In this document: positions 1-6,297 of the stretch, piece by piece | How the letters are laid out: every line of letters starts with the position of its first letter | Position numbering within the stretch: the first letter of the stretch is position 1 | Origin: Salibacterium qingdaonense | GTDB taxonomy: Bacteria > Bacillota > Bacilli > Bacillales > Marinococcaceae | Reading direction: 5' to 3' | Assembly: GCF_900114715.1 (NCBI RefSeq) | Contig: NZ_FOTY01000016.1 | Coordinates: 1-64,000, forward strand | DNA: 64,000 nt | The notes under the pieces: model-generated | Databases searched by the model: none | Told to the model about the DNA's origin: nothing | Seen by the model: only the letters and a program-made list of their open reading frames with translations | Program-made: the position numbers and the translations under genes

Positions 1-94
1 TGTTAATGCTGTTTTCAAATGACCGATTGCTGACGGCGTTGCCTGTCCATCCATAGACGGGTATACTGTCCATAAGAAGCCATAGAAAGGAAAA

Positions 95-139
95 AAGAGA
101 CTCCGGCCCCACTCGTCCCCACGAGTACCGAAGTCTCTT
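95..139 (-). terminator. Hairpin plus U-run reading leftwards out of the element
   Basis: AAGAGACT at 95-102 pairs with AGTCTCTT at 132-139, and ACTCGT/ACGAGT form an inner stem. On the minus strand the stem is followed directly by a T-run (TCTTTTTTCC), so it looks like an intrinsic terminator for transcripts running left. On the plus strand no U-run follows. Confidence 0.6.
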
Positions 140-204
140 ATCACAGTATATGCTTATTATATCACAGTATCGTCTACTGCCGACAGAGCATTCCACTCTT
201 TTTA

Positions 205-711
205 GTGAAAAGTATGGAAGTGTTACCTTGTCCTGTATGCCGTGGAACCCTTCGGGTTATCGGCAGCCGTAACCGCATATGGAAGCAGGCGGATGGAAGT
301 TCTCCACGCCTTCGTCTCCGACGCCTTCGCTGCCAGGAATGCTCTACCGTTCACCATGAACTGCCGGATCTATTGATTCCCCATAAGCATTATGATGCCT
401 GTTGTATGGAGGATACGATAGCGGAGCAGGAAAGGGATGATTCCGTGGTAAGTGCGGAATCATCAACGATGATTCGTTGGAAACAGGGATTCTCTCATTG
501 GCTGCGAATGGTACTTCTTATGCTGCAAACGTTGTTGTACCGGTTTGGACGTCAGGTGCCGAATTCGTTTTTGTCCCCGACGGGTTCGTCCATACTTTCG
601 ATCGTGGGACCATGGGTGGGAGTGAAAAAAGGGTGGCTGGTTCGTCTTGTCCAACCGTTAGTAAACACTCATATTTACCAACATACCCGTTTTGCGTTTT
701 TGTCCAGATAG
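205..711 (+). CDS. DUF6431-like zinc-ribbon protein of the transposon
   Basis: A 168-residue basic protein, first gene of the three-gene element. The N-terminus has CPVC (Cys9, Cys12) and, after an arginine-rich stretch, CQEC (Cys43, Cys46), a typical four-cysteine zinc ribbon. A short motif with HHELPDLL and HKHYD follows. The rest is hydrophobic and basic with no recognised domain. I recall that this type (DUF6431) is found beside DDE transposase/ATPase pairs in Firmicutes, but its function is not known to me. By position it may be an accessory DNA-binding or target-choice factor (inference). The start is uncertain: a GTG at 205 or an ATG at 214, neither with a good ribosome-binding site. 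Confidence 0.7.
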   Translation: MKSMEVLPCPVCRGTLRVIGSRNRIWKQADGSSPRLRLRRLRCQECSTVHHELPDLLIPHKHYDACCMEDTIAEQERDDSVVSAESSTMIRWKQGFSHWLRMVLLMLQTLLYRFGRQVPNSFLSPTGSSILSIVGPWVGVKKGWLVRLVQPLVNTHIYQHTRFAFLSR

Positions 712-764
712 GGATCCTCTATGCTTGAAAGGAATTATTATTTCTTTTAAAGGAGAGGATGTTC

Positions 765-2114
765 ATGTCGTCCCATGAAAAAGCAGAAGCCGTAGCAGCC
801 GAACGAATGGAAGTCATTGCTCCATTAGTAGAACGTGGTCTGGATTCGGCCGAAATGATGGAGCGTCGACGTCGGATTAGTAAAGAAAGCGGTTGGTCCG
901 ATCGTACGCTGCGTCGATATGTGCAAGCCTATCAGGAACAGGGTTTTACGGGACTGAAACCGAAAGGGAATGGGCGAAAAGGACGTCGTGTCATTCCGGA
1001 AACCGTTCTGGAACAGGCGGTTTATTTACGGCGGGAAGTGCCGTCCCGCAGCGTAGCTCAAATCATTCAAGTACTGGAATGGGAAGGGTATCTGCAACCG
1101 GGGGAGATAAAGCGGAGTACACTTCAGGAACAGTTGACCAAGCGCGGATACAGTTCGCGGCATATGCGCTTGTATCAAGATCCGGGTGTAGCCGCAAGGA
1201 GGTTTCAGCATCAGCACCGCAATCAGCTGTGGCATTCCGATATTAAATATGGTCCTTATCTTCCGATCGGTCCGAATGGAGATAAAAAGCAGGTGTATCT
1301 GGTAGCTTTTCTGGATGATGCCACTCGTTTTCTGATTCACGGTATGTTCTATCCCATATTAGATCAATCTATTATTGAAACGGGGTTTCGACGGGCCGTC
1401 AATGCCTATGGTGTGCCGGAGCGTGTCTATTTTGATAACGGGAAACAGTACCGAACCAAGTGGATGAAGCGAACGTGTGCGAAACTGGGGATTCGGCTTC
1501 TGTATGCGAAGCCCTATTCCCCGGAATCCACAGGGAAAGTCGAACGATTTAACCGCAATGTGGACGCTTTCCTCGAGGAAGTACGCCTGGATCCCCCGGA
1601 GTCATTGGATGTATTAAACCGACGGTTTTATGCCTGGAGCCAGCAGTGTTATCAACAAAGGCCGCACAGTGCACTGCCGGAAGAACGGACACCGGAAGTC
1701 GCGTTTCAAAAAGACCCGCAGCCCATCCATTTTGAAGATGTTGAAACCATAACAAACGCTTTTCTTCATTCCACCTCTCGAAAAGTGGATAAGGCTGGAT
1801 GCATCAGCTTTCAGGGAACACTATATGAAGTGGGCTTATCCTTTATAGGAAGCCAGGTAGATGTTGTTTTTGATCCAGCAGATGTGACAACCCTGATGAT
1901 TGAATACGCTGATTATGAGCCATGGCAAGCAACAGAGGTAGTGATTGGACGCAAAGCGGGAGCTCGTCCTAAACGGCCGGAAGGTCAAACGAAACAGGAG
2001 ACAACCCGTTCCCGGGTTTTAGAAGCCGCTGAACAAGCAGAGGCCGAAAAACAAAAAGCCCAGCGTCCCGTCATTTCTTATATCGCTGCGGAAGGAGGGG
2101 ATTCCCGTGTTTGA
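765..2114 (+). CDS. DDE transposase (rve integrase core, TniA/TnsB-like)
   Basis: A 449-residue transposase. The N-terminal 130 residues carry helix-turn-helix domains (SGWSDRTLRRYVQAY, then a second winged-helix-like region). The retroviral-integrase core follows with the catalytic triad: Asp159 in HSDIKYG, Asp224 in YFDNGKQ and Glu260 in GKVERF, 35 residues after the second Asp. A C-terminal Mu-type beta domain ends in a basic and acidic tail rich in Lys/Glu/Gln. It should bind the element ends and carry out strand transfer. The ATG at 765 has AGGAGAGG (751-758) at proper spacing; an in-frame ATG at 759 is too close. It overlaps the ATPase gene by 8 bases, showing translational coupling. 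IS481- or IS21-type membership is less likely given the partner ATPase class. Confidence 0.88.
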   Translation: MSSHEKAEAVAAERMEVIAPLVERGLDSAEMMERRRRISKESGWSDRTLRRYVQAYQEQGFTGLKPKGNGRKGRRVIPETVLEQAVYLRREVPSRSVAQIIQVLEWEGYLQPGEIKRSTLQEQLTKRGYSSRHMRLYQDPGVAARRFQHQHRNQLWHSDIKYGPYLPIGPNGDKKQVYLVAFLDDATRFLIHGMFYPILDQSIIETGFRRAVNAYGVPERVYFDNGKQYRTKWMKRTCAKLGIRLLYAKPYSPESTGKVERFNRNVDAFLEEVRLDPPESLDVLNRRFYAWSQQCYQQRPHSALPEERTPEVAFQKDPQPIHFEDVETITNAFLHSTSRKVDKAGCISFQGTLYEVGLSFIGSQVDVVFDPADVTTLMIEYADYEPWQATEVVIGRKAGARPKRPEGQTKQETTRSRVLEAAEQAEAEKQKAQRPVISYIAAEGGDSRV

Positions 2115-2907
2115 GTCTTTTTATGGATTTCAAGCAACGCCCTTCAGTCGGTCGATTCCTTCTTCTTCCCTTTACCAGGCTCCACGTCTGGAAGAGGTAC
2201 AAGGACGACTGCGATATGCGGCCAGCCATCAGTTGTTTATGATCGTCACAGGCGATGCGGGAACCGGGAAAACAACCCTGTTGCGACGATTTACAGAGAC
2301 CTTGGATCCCCAGCAGTATCAGGCCTTGTATCTCTCTGATTCCAAACTTACACCCCGGCATTTTTATAAGGGGTTGTTAGAACAGCTGGGATGCGAAGCA
2401 AAATTCTACAGAGGAGATGCGAAAAGGCAGCTGCACCAGCAGATTGAGATCATGAGAGGCGTTCAAGGGCGTTATCCTGTCGTGATTGTAGACGAAGCCC
2501 ATTTATTAGATCGGGAGATGCTGGAGGAAGTGCGATTCCTTCTCAATGTGCAGATGGATGCGATGAGCCCGATGGCTCTCATTTTGGTGGGGCAGAGTGA
2601 GCTTTGGGATCGTTTGAAACTGCAGTCTTTTGCGGCGATACGCCAACGTATCGACCTGCAGTACCAACTTCCGCACTACGACAGATCCGAAGTCGAGGGC
2701 TACATAAAGACTTCCCTTACGTATGCTGGAAATCAGGCAGATATCTTTTCTGATGCAGCTATAGAGGAGATTCATCAGTACACAAACGGCACCCCAAGGC
2801 TGATTAATAAAGTGTGTACCCATTGTTTAATGTATGGTTCTCAAAGTGGCCATCGCATTATTGATGATCACATGGTGAAAGATGTCATAACAGGAGAATT
2901 TCAATAG
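2107..2907 (+). CDS. AAA+ ATPase, TniB/TnsC/ExeA type
   Basis: A 266-residue ATPase. Walker A GDAGTGKTT lies at residues 49-57 and Walker B VVIVDEAH at about 125-132. GTPRLINKVC near residue 230 is the sensor-2-like motif shared by ExeA/GspA and transposon TniB/TnsC proteins. The N-terminal YGFQATPFS is the classic ExeA-family opening. In Tn7-like elements such ATPases pick and mark target DNA and activate the transposase; that role is inferred here from family and position. It starts at GTG 2107 behind AAGGAGGGG and overlaps the transposase. A hairpin follows its stop. Confidence 0.88.
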   Translation: MFESFYGFQATPFSRSIPSSSLYQAPRLEEVQGRLRYAASHQLFMIVTGDAGTGKTTLLRRFTETLDPQQYQALYLSDSKLTPRHFYKGLLEQLGCEAKFYRGDAKRQLHQQIEIMRGVQGRYPVVIVDEAHLLDREMLEEVRFLLNVQMDAMSPMALILVGQSELWDRLKLQSFAAIRQRIDLQYQLPHYDRSEVEGYIKTSLTYAGNQADIFSDAAIEEIHQYTNGTPRLINKVCTHCLMYGSQSGHRIIDDHMVKDVITGEFQ

Positions 2908-2936
2908 CAGGAGGAGAGCGATTCTCCTGCTTTCTT
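2906..2936 (+). terminator. Intrinsic terminator of the transposon operon
   Basis: AGCAGGAG at 2906-2913 pairs with CTCCTGCT at 2924-2931, followed by TTCTTTCGT. It overlaps the stop codon region of the ATPase. Confidence 0.75.
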
Positions 2937-2989
2937 TCGTCTGTTCCCGGACAGACTGCCTGTCAATTTGTGGACCATACGGTCCAGCA

Positions 2990-3074
2990 ATAAACGGTCA
3001 AATTTCCCTAGCAGTAACAGTTACCGGCCAAACGGAACCTGTTACAAGCCGAACTTTATAATTTACAAGCCAAA
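2990..3074. repeat. Repeated transposase-site-like motifs at the right end of the element
   Basis: Related 13-mers occur at 2990 (ATAAACGGTCAAA), 3020 (GTTACCGGCCAAA), 3041 (GTTACAAGCCGAA) and 3062 (TTTACAAGCCAAA). The last three are spaced exactly 21 bp. A further variant (ACCATACGGTCCA) lies near 2973, and ATGACCG/CTGACGGCG variants occur in the first 40 bases of the window in the opposite orientation. Such iterated sites are typical of TnsB/TniA-bound ends. Confidence 0.6.
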
Positions 3075-3130
3075 TAAGCAGGATGACACGCCGGCACCAC
3101 AAAAACAATGCAGTATGAATCTACGCATGC

Positions 3131-3700
3131 TTAACCGGCCGGGACGGCGTTAATAACATAATGCTCGTCCTTCCAGGCAGAACATTCTGCCTCAAACCCA
3201 TTATCACGAATGATCTGGAGCAGGTGATCCGAAGGAAGGCGGTGGGAAAGCGGAGGACCGGATTCTGTTTCGACTGCTTCCCATTCGACAATCATCAGCT
3301 GCCCTCCTGGTTTTAATAACCGTTTGATTTCGTTTAAGGTTCCGCTGACACTTTCCACTTCATGAATGACAAAAGCGGCCAGCACTTTATCAACGGAATC
3401 ATCCTTCATCTCCACCTGTTCCAGGTTACTTTCTACATAGTGCAGGCGGAACTTTTCCTGTTCCGCCCGCTCTTTTAACATCGCCAGCATCTTCGGTTCG
3501 AGATCGACCGCATAGACTGCGCCTGCTGTTCTTTTTGCAATGGAAAGCGTGAATAACCCGTTTCCTGATCCAAGATCCGCCACGTCATCACCGGGTAAAA
3601 TATCCAGCTGATCCAGGATATTCTCCGGTTTTACTACATCGATTCGTTCTTCTGCCAGCAGTTTTTCTGCTTTTTCAGGATCAAATTTTTTCTCCTGCAT
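3131..3700 (-). CDS. Class I SAM-dependent methyltransferase
   Basis: A 189-residue methyltransferase with a Rossmann-type SAM-binding motif (ADLGSGNGLFTLSIA), the acidic loop AVDLEPKML and a post-I motif around LAAFVIHEVESV. A LLKPGGQLMIVEW strand follows, as in UbiE/COQ5-type methyltransferases (Methyltransf_11/25). The substrate is unknown. It is the last gene of the minus-strand sulfur operon, 37 bases after the DsrE2 gene, so a role in methylating a sulfur compound or thiol is possible but only inferred. The ATG at 3700 has AAGGAGA upstream; an upstream in-frame start (3718) lacks one. Confidence 0.85.
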   Translation of the reverse strand: MQEKKFDPEKAEKLLAEERIDVVKPENILDQLDILPGDDVADLGSGNGLFTLSIAKRTAGAVYAVDLEPKMLAMLKERAEQEKFRLHYVESNLEQVEMKDDSVDKVLAAFVIHEVESVSGTLNEIKRLLKPGGQLMIVEWEAVETESGPPLSHRLPSDHLLQIIRDNGFEAECSAWKDEHYVINAVPAG

Positions 3701-3736
3701 TCTACGTTCTCCTTCCAATCAGCGCATTTCTTATCA

Positions 3737-4225
3737 TTAGATGAACAGATTAAGATTCGATTGTTCCGCCTCGGACAAGTAGGAGGCCACTCCGGCGTAT
3801 TCGAGCCCGTCGATGAGCTCCTCTTCTTTTAATCCCATAACGTCCATCGACATCGTACAGGCAACCATCTTAATATCCAGCTCCTGCGCCATTTCTATCA
3901 TTTCCTGAAGAGAGGACACATTATGGCTTTTCATCATTTTTTTCATCATTTTCGGTCCCATGCCGCCGAAATTCATTTTGGAGAGACCGAGTTTTTCCGG
4001 GCCGCGCGGCATCATTTTTTCAAACATTTTCTCCATGAACTTCTTGTCACTGCCGCCTTGTACATTTTCCTTCCGTAGTACATTCAGACCCCAGAAAGTG
4101 AAAAACATTGTTACCTGTTTGCCCATTGCCGCGGCGCCTGTCGCGATAATGAAACTTGCCATTGCTTTATCGAGATCGCCGTCAAAGACGATCATCGTCG
4201 TACCGTTCTTTTCTTCTTCTGCCAT
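3737..4225 (-). CDS. yrkE: DsrE2/DrsE-family sulfur carrier protein (YrkE-like)
   Basis: A 162-residue DsrE/DsrF/DrsH-like protein. It opens with the TMIVFDGDLDKA strand and a GAAAMGKQVTMFFTFWGL segment, has a Met-rich linker (residues 80-100), and carries the conserved cysteine at Cys123 in VACTMSMDVMG, the likely persulfide-carrying residue. In B. subtilis yrkE sits with yrkD, yrkF, yrkH, yrkI and yrkJ, matching the gene set here. It would pass sulfane sulfur between the TusA and rhodanese proteins in the cytoplasm (inference from family). The start ATG at 4225 has AAGGAGG; 13 bases separate it from the upstream TusA gene. Confidence 0.87.
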   Translation of the reverse strand: MAEEEKNGTTMIVFDGDLDKAMASFIIATGAAAMGKQVTMFFTFWGLNVLRKENVQGGSDKKFMEKMFEKMMPRGPEKLGLSKMNFGGMGPKMMKKMMKSHNVSSLQEMIEMAQELDIKMVACTMSMDVMGLKEEELIDGLEYAGVASYLSEAEQSNLNLFI

Positions 4226-4238
4226 GATCAAGGCCTCC

Positions 4239-4466
4239 TTATGCTTTTTTGATCCAGAATTTCAGTGTTTCGCCTTCGTTGTCCTGCTGCAGGAGTTCAT
4301 GCCCGGATGACTTCGTCCAAGCCGGGATGTCGGACGCGGCTCCTTTATCAGTCGCGTGGATTTCAAGAATGTCACCGGCGTTCAGATTATCAATTTCCTT
4401 TTTGGCCTTCACTACCGGCATCGGGCAGGCCAGCCCCTCGGCGTTCAATACTTTATTACTTTCCAT
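4239..4466 (-). CDS. yrkI: TusA-family sulfurtransferase (YrkI-like)
   Basis: A 75-residue SirA/TusA fold protein. It has the hallmark CPxP motif, GLACPMPVVKAKK with Cys14 as the sulfur-accepting residue, and the family's usual length. It lies between the rhodanese/MBL gene and the DsrE2 gene, in the order expected for a sulfur relay. Start ATG behind AAAGGAGAG. It closely resembles the TusA half of the fusion protein encoded at 5665-6237, so the locus has two TusA domains. Confidence 0.92.
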   Translation of the reverse strand: MESNKVLNAEGLACPMPVVKAKKEIDNLNAGDILEIHATDKGAASDIPAWTKSSGHELLQQDNEGETLKFWIKKA

Positions 4467-4518
4467 GAAAAATCTCTCCTTTGTTAAAATACTTATTTCA
4501 AATGTTCACCTTTTTGTT

Positions 4519-5649
4519 TTATGATACAGCGCATCGGTTCGGGCCGATTTCCATTTCGGTCTTCTCTTCTTCTGCCGGCTCCACCTGTCCCATGTTCGTC
4601 TGACGGATCGTTTCGTAAGCGTTAGGCTGGGGCGGCAGATTTTCGGTTACCGCCCGGCGGAACGCGGCTTCGTCTTCGATATTCAACCCGTGGTTGCGGG
4701 CATACAGATCGGCAAGTTCCGCCATGACAAGCCCGTTATCATCAAGTTCTTCATGTTTCGAAAAGTGGGCCGGCAGTACAACCAGATCTCCATCAAGATC
4801 CGCGTAGCGGCTGTACAGAGTTTCGCGCAGATCGCCGACCCAGTCTTCAGCTTTTCCGGCGAGATCCGGACGACCGATAGAGTCAACGAACAGAATGTCG
4901 CCGGTAAGCAGGTACTGATCATCGACAATCAGCGACGTACTGCCGATCGTATGCCCCGGGGAGTACATAGCCTGAATGTCTATCTCCGTTCCCCCCACCG
5001 TTAATGTTTTCCCGTCTTCGAGCGGTTCATAGGAAAAAGTGACCCCGCCGGCATCAGCTTCCGGAAGCAGGTACGACGCGCCGAAGCGCTCGGCAAGGTC
5101 ACGGCCTCCGGAAATATGATCGGCGTGCAGGTGCGTATCCACCGCATATTTCAGCACGGCCTGTTTCTCCTCGAGAAAAGAGGCAAACGCATCGGTCAAT
5201 CGCACCGGATCCACAATGGCTGCTTCTCCGTTCGAAATAACAGCATAGGAAAGGCATCCTTTTCCGATCCGGACAAATTGATAGAGTTCCCCTCCATCGG
5301 TGAGATCCGCTGCTTTGACCGGCTCGATATGCTCACTCCATGTCTTCATGCCGCCCTGGAGGTATAAATAATCCCCTCCGTCCGCTTCTGCCAGCATATC
5401 TGCGACAAACTGCGATGATCCTTCTTTTGCACAGACGACCAGGACTTCTTTATCCGATGGAATCCGATCAAGAATCTCATCGACCCCGTCCAGCAGTTCA
5501 AAATACGGCTTATTGATGACCTCCACGTTTTTTCCTTCAACTCTCCAGTCCTGAAATTCGTCTTCATTTCGTACGTCCAGGATGAATAAAGGCTCCTGGT
5601 TCATGACTTTCTTTGCCAGTTCCGCGGCTGTTAAGGCTTGAATTCCCAT
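4519..5649 (-). CDS. Rhodanese - metallo-beta-lactamase fusion, persulfide dioxygenase-like
   Basis: A 376-residue protein. The N-terminal rhodanese domain (residues 1-115) has Cys73 in the active loop VVCAKEGSS. The metallo-beta-lactamase-fold domain (about 125-350) has the full metal motif THLHADH (His173, His175, Asp177, His178), SPGHT and [15 protein letters not shown], the last typical of ETHE1-type persulfide dioxygenases and related hydrolases. It likely oxidises or hydrolyses low-molecular-weight persulfides to sulfite or thiosulfate with the rhodanese moving sulfur. The domain order is the reverse of the CstB-like protein at 7914-9326. Related to B. subtilis YrkH. Preceded by GAAAGGGG; 15 bases downstream of the TusA-rhodanese gene. 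Confidence 0.88.
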
Positions 5650-5664
5650 TTCTTTTCCCCTTTC

Positions 5665-6237
5665 TTATTCCTTTTCTTCCGTTAGAACGCCATCCCATTC
5701 CGACATGCCCGGCTTCACATTCACGACATGGTCAAAACCATTCCTCTGCAGCATATGGGCTGCCATGCTGCTGCGGCGGCCGGTTCGGCACACGACGTGA
5801 ATCGTATGGGAAGAGTCCAGCTCTTTCATTCTGTCTTCCAGTTCTCCAAGCGGAATCGACACCGCTTCCGGGATATGGGAAAACCCGTATTCCGCCGGCT
5901 CCCGGACATCAAGCACCGTGACATTGTCCCGAGTGCGGACCTCGTTTAATGCTTCGTTGGTGACTTCATGAGGAAACGGCGTTTCTTCTTTCGTTTCCTC
6001 CGGATCAGCCTTACGCACGTAATGGTACAGTACATCACCCGCTTCTCTCGTGCCGACGTATTCATGCCCGGTTGTTTTCGCCCAGCCCTTGAGATCGGCA
6101 AGCGACCCGCGATCTGTCGCCTGGACTTCCAGCACCTCACCGGCATTCATGGTTTCTACCGCCTTTTTCGTTTTAACAATCGGCATCGGGCAGCCCAGCC
6201 CTTTGGCATCCACCCGTTCATTGACTTCCATGCTCAT
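5665..6237 (-). CDS. yrkF: TusA-rhodanese fusion sulfurtransferase (YrkF/CstA-like)
   Basis: A 190-residue fusion. A TusA domain (1-75) has CPMP with Cys16, and a C-terminal rhodanese domain (95-190) has the loop VVCRTGRRSS with Cys150. B. subtilis YrkF has the same TusA-rhodanese order; staphylococcal CstA adds a second rhodanese domain. Role: relay of sulfane sulfur between cysteine persulfides during detoxification (family knowledge). The ATG at 6237 sits 7 bases after AGGAGG; a longer reading frame to 6297 has no ribosome-binding site and would overlap the operators. Two CstR-like operators lie 22-76 bases upstream, so this is the first gene of the 6237-3131 transcription unit. Confidence 0.9.
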   Translation of the reverse strand: MSMEVNERVDAKGLGCPMPIVKTKKAVETMNAGEVLEVQATDRGSLADLKGWAKTTGHEYVGTREAGDVLYHYVRKADPEETKEETPFPHEVTNEALNEVRTRDNVTVLDVREPAEYGFSHIPEAVSIPLGELEDRMKELDSSHTIHVVCRTGRRSSMAAHMLQRNGFDHVVNVKPGMSEWDGVLTEEKE

Positions 6238-6258
6238 TGTATTACCTCCTATATAAAT

Positions 6259-6274
6259 ATACGGTACGGGGTAT
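6259..6274. promoter_or_regulatory. CstR-like operator upstream of yrkF
   Basis: ATACGGTACGGGGTAT; its reverse complement is identical base for base to the operator at 9363-9378. Placed just upstream of the TusA-rhodanese start. Confidence 0.7.
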
Positions 6275-6297
6275 ATAAACCTAAAAAATATATACAT

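Follow-up and report, generated by a model that had tools for sequence, protein, structure and literature searches.

A Mu/Tn7-style transposon of Salibacterium qingdaonense with a zinc-ribbon protein probably made by a programmed frame change

The window analysed here is the whole 64,000-nucleotide stretch of Salibacterium qingdaonense DNA from assembly GCF_900114715.1 (contig NZ_FOTY01000016.1, positions 1 to 64,000, forward strand). Its first 3,019 base pairs (bp) are a transposable element with genes for a zinc-ribbon protein (Z), a DDE(35) transposase (T) and an AAA+ ATPase (A). We consider it probable that this is a self-contained Z-T-A transposon whose core factor Z is made as a fusion to a short leader by a programmed frame change. 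A wider reading, to which we give somewhat less than even weight, is that a broad transposon lineage uses +1 ribosomal frameshifting, out of a 17-20 codon leader behind a covarying hairpin, to produce a DNA-binding transposition factor and not the transposase; this would be the first +1 ribosomal case in an insertion sequence (IS)-type element, and would make Z, alongside TniQ and TnsE, a third type of partner for a Mu/Tn7-type transposase-ATPase pair. According to a passage of a 2016 review, +1 frameshifting was yet to be seen in IS elements (PMC5009743). In the titles, abstracts and passages on which we judged, no published description of a Z-T-A element was found.

Gene content and extent of the element

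The element, its genes and the adjoining duplication are as follows.

1..3019, + strand: whole transposable element, ends TGTTAATGC... and ...GCAGTAACA, where the flanks of the copies in the same genome diverge exactly
205..711, + strand: Z, DUF6431 zinc-ribbon protein, main frame (leader frame +1); PF20020, E 1.1e-26
759..2114, + strand: T, DDE(35) transposase, IS481-like with Mu-transpos_C, from domain matches and catalytic residues
2107..2907, + strand: A, AAA+ ATPase, TniB/MuB-like, overlapping T by 8 nucleotides, from domain and PDB matches
3020..3025, + strand: target duplication GTTACC, with its partner copy at the end of contig C4

The draft genome is in 68 contigs, and the window opens with the first base of contig C28; that base is the exact left end of the element. 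Five other contigs (C13, C4, C2, C46 and C36) end in pieces of 1-3019 at 100% identity, and every one of these matches breaks off precisely at base 1 or base 3019. Pairing the flanks by their duplications gives three genomic copies, C4 with C28 (GTTACC), C13 with C2 (AAAAAC) and C36 with C46 (CTATCAG), with duplications of 6, 6 and 7 bp; the third site is uninterrupted in a genome of the same genus, at 95% identity and with a single CTATCAG. Taken together, the contig-end matches, the duplications and the empty site therefore fix the element at 3,019 bp. The original prediction had let it run to 3088, and the last stretch of that, 3020-3088, is host DNA that opens with GTTACC.

The three open reading frames (ORFs) stand in the order first described, and the identification of a DDE(35) transposase and a TniB-type ATPase was borne out. 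Pfam finds an rve integrase core and Mu-transpos_C in T, whose catalytic residues are D161, D226 and E262, with 35 residues between the last two and all three invariant across eight aligned sequences. Against the NCBIfam models T scores 182.3 bits for IS481, under the cut-off of 224, and 47.3 bits for IS21, far below the cut-off of 160. Its best relative in the PDB is TnsB (entry 7svw, 3e-9), which we take to be that of ShCAST. A matches AAA_22 and TniB (PF05621, 32.0 bits, cut-off 22.4) and carries Walker A (GDAGTGKT) and Walker B (VVIVDE) motifs, and its sole PDB relative under 0.001 is the 'ATP-dependent target DNA activator B', MuB. The 8-nucleotide overlap of A with T is also found in 23/80 relatives, judged by the first start codon.

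Relatives were collected with T alone as bait, and the best 80 of 198 relatives in genome contigs make up the named loci (loci carry L numbers below). A adjoins T in all 80, while Z lies upstream of T in 79; locus L100 is without Z and L047 holds only its end. Given that only T served as bait, the arrangement is far from chance. It bears out the view that a Mu/Tn7-type pair travels with a DUF6431 protein as the only other gene, which absence of that gene from most copies was to have contradicted. T is found at E 1e-60 or better in 14 of 397 sampled genomes of the order; L017 and L022, described below, are among the loci cut from these. Other genomes of the order contain more divergent sets arranged in the same way, and so do plasmids of Mycobacteroides, Acidithiobacillus, Pandoraea, Streptomyces, Geobacillus, Ruminococcus and Alicyclobacillus. 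In Thermobacillus there is no annotated gene just upstream of T, yet a CPHC...CPCC frame is present there. Relatives that contain Z span Bacillota, Actinomycetota and Pseudomonadota.

A leader in another frame

The zinc gene as first drawn is correct for its DUF6431 main frame and apparently incomplete at its start, as about the first 18 codons of Z would lie upstream in another frame. The elements involved are listed here.

84..91, + strand: Shine-Dalgarno-like AGAAAGGA, 5' of the hairpin, in the window sequence and in the same layout in relatives
95..139, + strand: RNA hairpin between the Shine-Dalgarno sequence and the leader start codon (predicted fold of the window copy, -20.5 kcal/mol)
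150..203, + strand: leader, start codon ATG 150-152, which would encode the N-terminus of Z in another frame (MLIISQYRLLPTEHSTLF), as judged from the conserved leader in relatives
198..206, + strand: putative frameshift site CTT TTT AGT (leader frame), after the XTT TTY NGT consensus of 67 +1 loci

The leader is conserved, 17-20 codons long, with the consensus M[IV]I[IV][ST]xYxL[IV]E[NK]...GVF. We examined 89 loci for it and located Z in 87. A fixed pattern found the leader in 78, where its frame relative to Z is +1 in 67, -1 in 9 and the same in 2. Inspection by eye of nine loci missed by the pattern placed L073, L092 and L131 in-frame and L118 and L119 at +1; L071 and L096 start too close to a contig end, no leader is present in L102, and L090 is ambiguous.

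Several properties suggest that the leader is read as protein and that it belongs to Z. Codon differences within it are much more frequently silent when read in the leader frame (3417 silent, 4476 not) than in the other two (1651 and 6124; 314 and 7068). Between the leader start and the first Cys the Z frame contains a stop in 52 of the 67 +1 loci and in 8 of the 9 at -1, and 12 of the 76 out-of-frame genes offer Z no ATG, GTG or TTG start (41 have neither ATG nor GTG). The junction in the +1 loci follows the consensus XTT TTY NGT, and the leader codon after this site is a stop in 54/67 (TAG 49, TAA 5), against 7.6 expected from the Val and Arg codon use in the rest of Z. Natural fusions in one frame occur in five relatives (L063, L073, L092, L106 and L131); in a model of the L106 fusion (predicted local distance difference test 81.9, predicted template modelling score 0.73) strands 2-5 and 7-13 come from the leader part and precede a strand at 16-21. 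In a tree of T with 80 rows, the 61 rows scored +1 are present in all major parts, and the label needs 12 changes when rows without a scored leader are counted as other.

A conserved slip site thus joins two conserved coding frames, the pattern by which programmed frameshifting is recognised. With the frame, stop, codon and fusion evidence side by side, the best reading of Z expression would be a leader-Z fusion made by a programmed frame change, whether ribosomal or transcriptional. In the latter case the polymerase would realign on the short T run, so that some mRNAs carry leader and Z in one frame. Both +1 (67) and -1 (9) relations occur within the one family, which a passage of the GeneTack study treats as a mark of realignment (PMC3711429), and IS1447 is a precedent, described in PMC6211511 as using +1 transcriptional slippage, for which a run of seven was found to be needed. 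The runs at the junction are merely T4-T6, however, with TTTTC in several loci, and the leader stop kept beside the site fits a ribosomal event better. We regard realignment as rather unlikely overall, and the ribosome as about twice as likely as the polymerase to be the cause of the frame change.

The region ahead of the leader has its own conserved layout. The order AGAAAGGA, a hairpin of about 50 nucleotides and the leader start was found with a fixed motif in 70 of 78 relatives. Across 63 aligned sequences all 12 predicted hairpin pairs show double changes, with a covariation of 0.528 against 0.218 when shuffled (0/500), in an alignment built without structure from which the structure itself was then derived. 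Pairing cells make up 89.6%, against 71.0% when shuffled (0/500) and 27-44% when the partner is slid. Rfam gave no match at E up to 1 for window 1-3200. The hairpin may bring the Shine-Dalgarno sequence near the start codon, or may block translation until something binds.

In the relatives, leader codons 3-5 (ATT GTA TCA) are nearly fixed including their third positions, beyond coding need. At another place in the same genome, the remnant of a related element (G000:C27:8591-8682, equivalent to L007 1501-1592) has 73% identity to window 73-167 and keeps the hairpin, the ATG and the first leader codons (ATGATTATTGTATCACAG).

End repeats and choice of target

Both ends of the element carry arrays of repeats, and a promoter-like sequence lies within the left one.

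5..71, + strand: left terminal array, three repeats (about 5-24, 29-48 and 52-71), each with a TGNCC-like motif at its end (20, 44 and 67); from 25 end pairs
2949..3015, - strand: right terminal array, mirror of the left; from 25 end pairs
39..67, + strand: promoter-like TTGCCT-N17-TATACT inside the left array, positions read from the window sequence

The repeats were counted in 25 distinct end pairs from 28 elements, with 0.33 expected per position. TGNCC-type motifs start at 20, 44 and 67 in 12, 25 and 24 of the 25 left ends and in 18, 23 and 23 of the right ends, and the element has TGT...ACA ends. The terminal repeats are likely to be binding sites of the transposase. Left repeats two and three contain TTGCCT and TATAAT spaced by 17, and the promoter pattern TTGYYT-N16-18-TAYAMT is present in 60/77 relatives. 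Because the promoter sits inside the left array, T bound to the left end would cover it.

Ends, target duplication and target preference, which the original prediction proposed to define, were read from the flanks of the copies. A site was entered when its duplication was at least 5 bp, which 28 of 84 loci passed, to which the three sites of this genome were added. The 30 sites so counted exclude L019, whose end pair was mis-chosen; the flank-motif figures were computed on 31 with L019 included. Duplications are 6 bp in 20 sites, 7 bp in 9 and 5 bp in 1. No flank motif is shared across the 30 sites, the highest column (-3) reaching 0.55 bits where 0.58 is the 95% level of shuffles. Of the three insertions in this genome, one is close to a deaminase-like gene, one is situated upstream of a flagellin-like gene and one falls within a dehydrogenase-like gene (names read from ORFs), and a mechanical count places 9 of 26 sites with long flanks within an ORF of at least 150 residues. 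The unrelated flanks and the positions of the sites are in keeping with non-specific insertion of the MuB kind, not with a mode like that of TnsD.

Role of the zinc-ribbon protein

Z was described as a Cys4 zinc ribbon, which is right for the window copy and too strict for relatives in general: across 57 aligned Z proteins Cys 2-4 are invariant, while the first Cys is Ser in 15. PF20020 also matches long ORFs of 369-434 residues, which may be ISL3 transposases. In distant members a helix-turn-helix domain, HTH_23, stands behind the zinc ribbon (25.2 bits in Streptomyces, cut-off 24.6, with two others just below the cut-off), and with these two features Z is best seen as a DNA-binding protein. 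In L022, Z and T form one ORF of 631 residues (2348-4243), with DUF6431 at 29-88 and rve at 328-431. Judged by its place beside T in 79/80 named relatives and by its fusion to T in one genome, Z is a core part of the element. Searched by sequence, the PDB held no convincing match to Z, and Foldseek found no match of its fold under 1e-3 in the PDB or BFVD; a second look at the fold returned the zinc ribbons of NrdR and RNA polymerase I, weakly (Z score up to 3.8).

Could Z choose the target? It had been proposed as an alternative selector; in that role it would replace TniQ or TnsD, recognise a site or DNA feature and load A there. The gene content of the element parallels TniA-TniB-TniQ, and Z combines a zinc ribbon with a helix-turn-helix in distant relatives, where TniQ too has a zinc finger according to a passage of PMC10293859. 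However, 30 targets without a common sequence, three of them in different gene contexts of one genome, argue against a sequence-specific selector, and Pfam TniQ is absent from the listed Pfam matches of the three window ORFs and of the 57 Z proteins. Target selection by non-sequence cues is conceivable, but nothing in the analysis supports it. We think this role unlikely, and in the TnsD sense the proposal finds no support. The other half of it, an end-binding factor, is favoured by the zinc ribbon and helix-turn-helix of distant relatives and by the fusion to T, as far as sequence can indicate.

A role for Z as a mere repressor of the element promoter, outside the transposition complex, would suit its place as the first gene of the operon, its DNA-binding fold with the promoter alongside and the likeness of its zinc ribbon to the repressor NrdR, the closest found, but its fusion to the N-terminus of T in L022 makes this improbable.

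Discussion

The element may be described as a Mu/Tn7-style transposase-ATPase system with an IS481-like T, in which the third partner would be a zinc-ribbon protein made by frameshift. In the mechanism that we propose T would probably bind the three repeats at each end and join the TGT/ACA ends to target DNA supplied by A, with a 6-7 bp duplication and no sequence-specific target. Z would belong to the core of the T complex as a DNA-binding part, with a role at the ends or in assembly more likely than one in reading the target. Translation would start at the short leader behind the hairpin, and a frame change at XTT-TTY-NGT, beside the leader stop in most copies, would shift part of the translation product to the Z frame; with only part so shifted, Z should be kept low. 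T on the left array would at the same time cover the promoter.

Several observations weigh against this account. In the window copy the Z frame contains GTG 205 and the leader has no stop at the junction, compatible with plain GTG initiation, and some ATG or GTG is present in 35/76 out-of-frame genes. Poor re-pairing of tRNAs at the usual slip positions is to be expected in the TTC and AGT/GGT variants, and no structure was found 3' of the frameshift site (mean z -0.03). The relatives are non-independent events, the count of 30 targets is conditional on a duplication being found, and the suggested role of Z draws on fold, fusion and gene order only, with a weak zinc-ribbon match in the PDB (Z 3.8). 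The first of these points would suit an absence of frameshifting, with the leader a regulatory peptide and Z begun by re-initiation at the overlap of the leader stop with the start of its frame, or from a rare start codon nearby such as GTG 205 or the TTG codons of many relatives, but the 12 genes without any such codon, the five relatives with leader and Z in one open frame and the modelled leader strands beside the Z sheet make this reading improbable.

Comparison with known systems places the element between several of them. T is related in sequence to the IS481 family and has the DDE(35) spacing, and the element has TGT/ACA ends, which a passage of PMC11406308 describes as shared by IS481 and Tn7-like elements. 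Unlike that family, T falls below the model cut-off and is accompanied by two further genes. The IS481-family TnRErm46 prefers CTAG, according to part of PMC6794481, whereas the element has no CTAG preference. With Tn7/Tn5053-like elements it shares a T with a Mu C-terminal domain and TnsB as nearest PDB match, a TniB-like ATPase and several repeats per end, three at each end here as predicted sites; it differs in having Z instead of TniQ or TnsD/E, and in lacking a single attachment site, with 30 unrelated sites and 6-7 bp duplications. Mu (MuA/MuB) and IS21 (IstA/IstB) likewise pair a transposase with an AAA+ partner for target DNA, and both show little target specificity. The third gene Z sets the element apart from them, as does the low IS21 score of T.

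As in prfB (+1) and IS1/IS3 (-1), a fixed site would link a short leader or upstream frame to the main frame, and the XTT-T of the element resembles the CTT-T of prfB. In contrast to these cases of programmed frameshifting, the shift here would make the accessory protein and not the transposase, and it is mostly +1. The leader stop falls one codon after the TTY codon in 54/67 loci, while a prfB-type test asks for a stop directly after the slipping codon.

Control by a frame change would be unusual for jumping elements of this kind, and the relatives provide many natural candidates for +1 frameshift cassettes. DUF6431, a domain of unknown function for which only a table line in one paper turned up in the literature searched, becomes a testable transposition factor, and database entries for DUF6431 proteins of the lineage are probably missing the true N-terminus. 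As a small, non-site-specific relative of Mu and Tn7 with defined ends, the element also lends itself to comparative work on the control of such systems. The original prediction did not note the leader in another frame, the hairpin, the terminal repeats or the precise right end.

Additional observations

An existing IS name may apply to the element, possibly a B. halodurans IS number. In L017 (2667-7280) one Z-T-A element sits inside another, between Z and the start of T. A fourth small gene follows A in some relatives (L132 5637-5873, L131 5640-5879 and L127 6100-6324); in Alicyclobacillus dauci it is DUF5348, of which no mention turned up in the literature searched. L025, L027 and L028 come from a genome with 16 DUF6431 matches (G071) and have a truncated transposase with no ATPase nearby; these copies are perhaps decaying or non-autonomous elements. 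Downstream of the element, window 3131-6297 holds host genes for a methyltransferase and for DsrE/TusA-like and rhodanese/metallo-hydrolase sulfur proteins, with names read from the ORFs.

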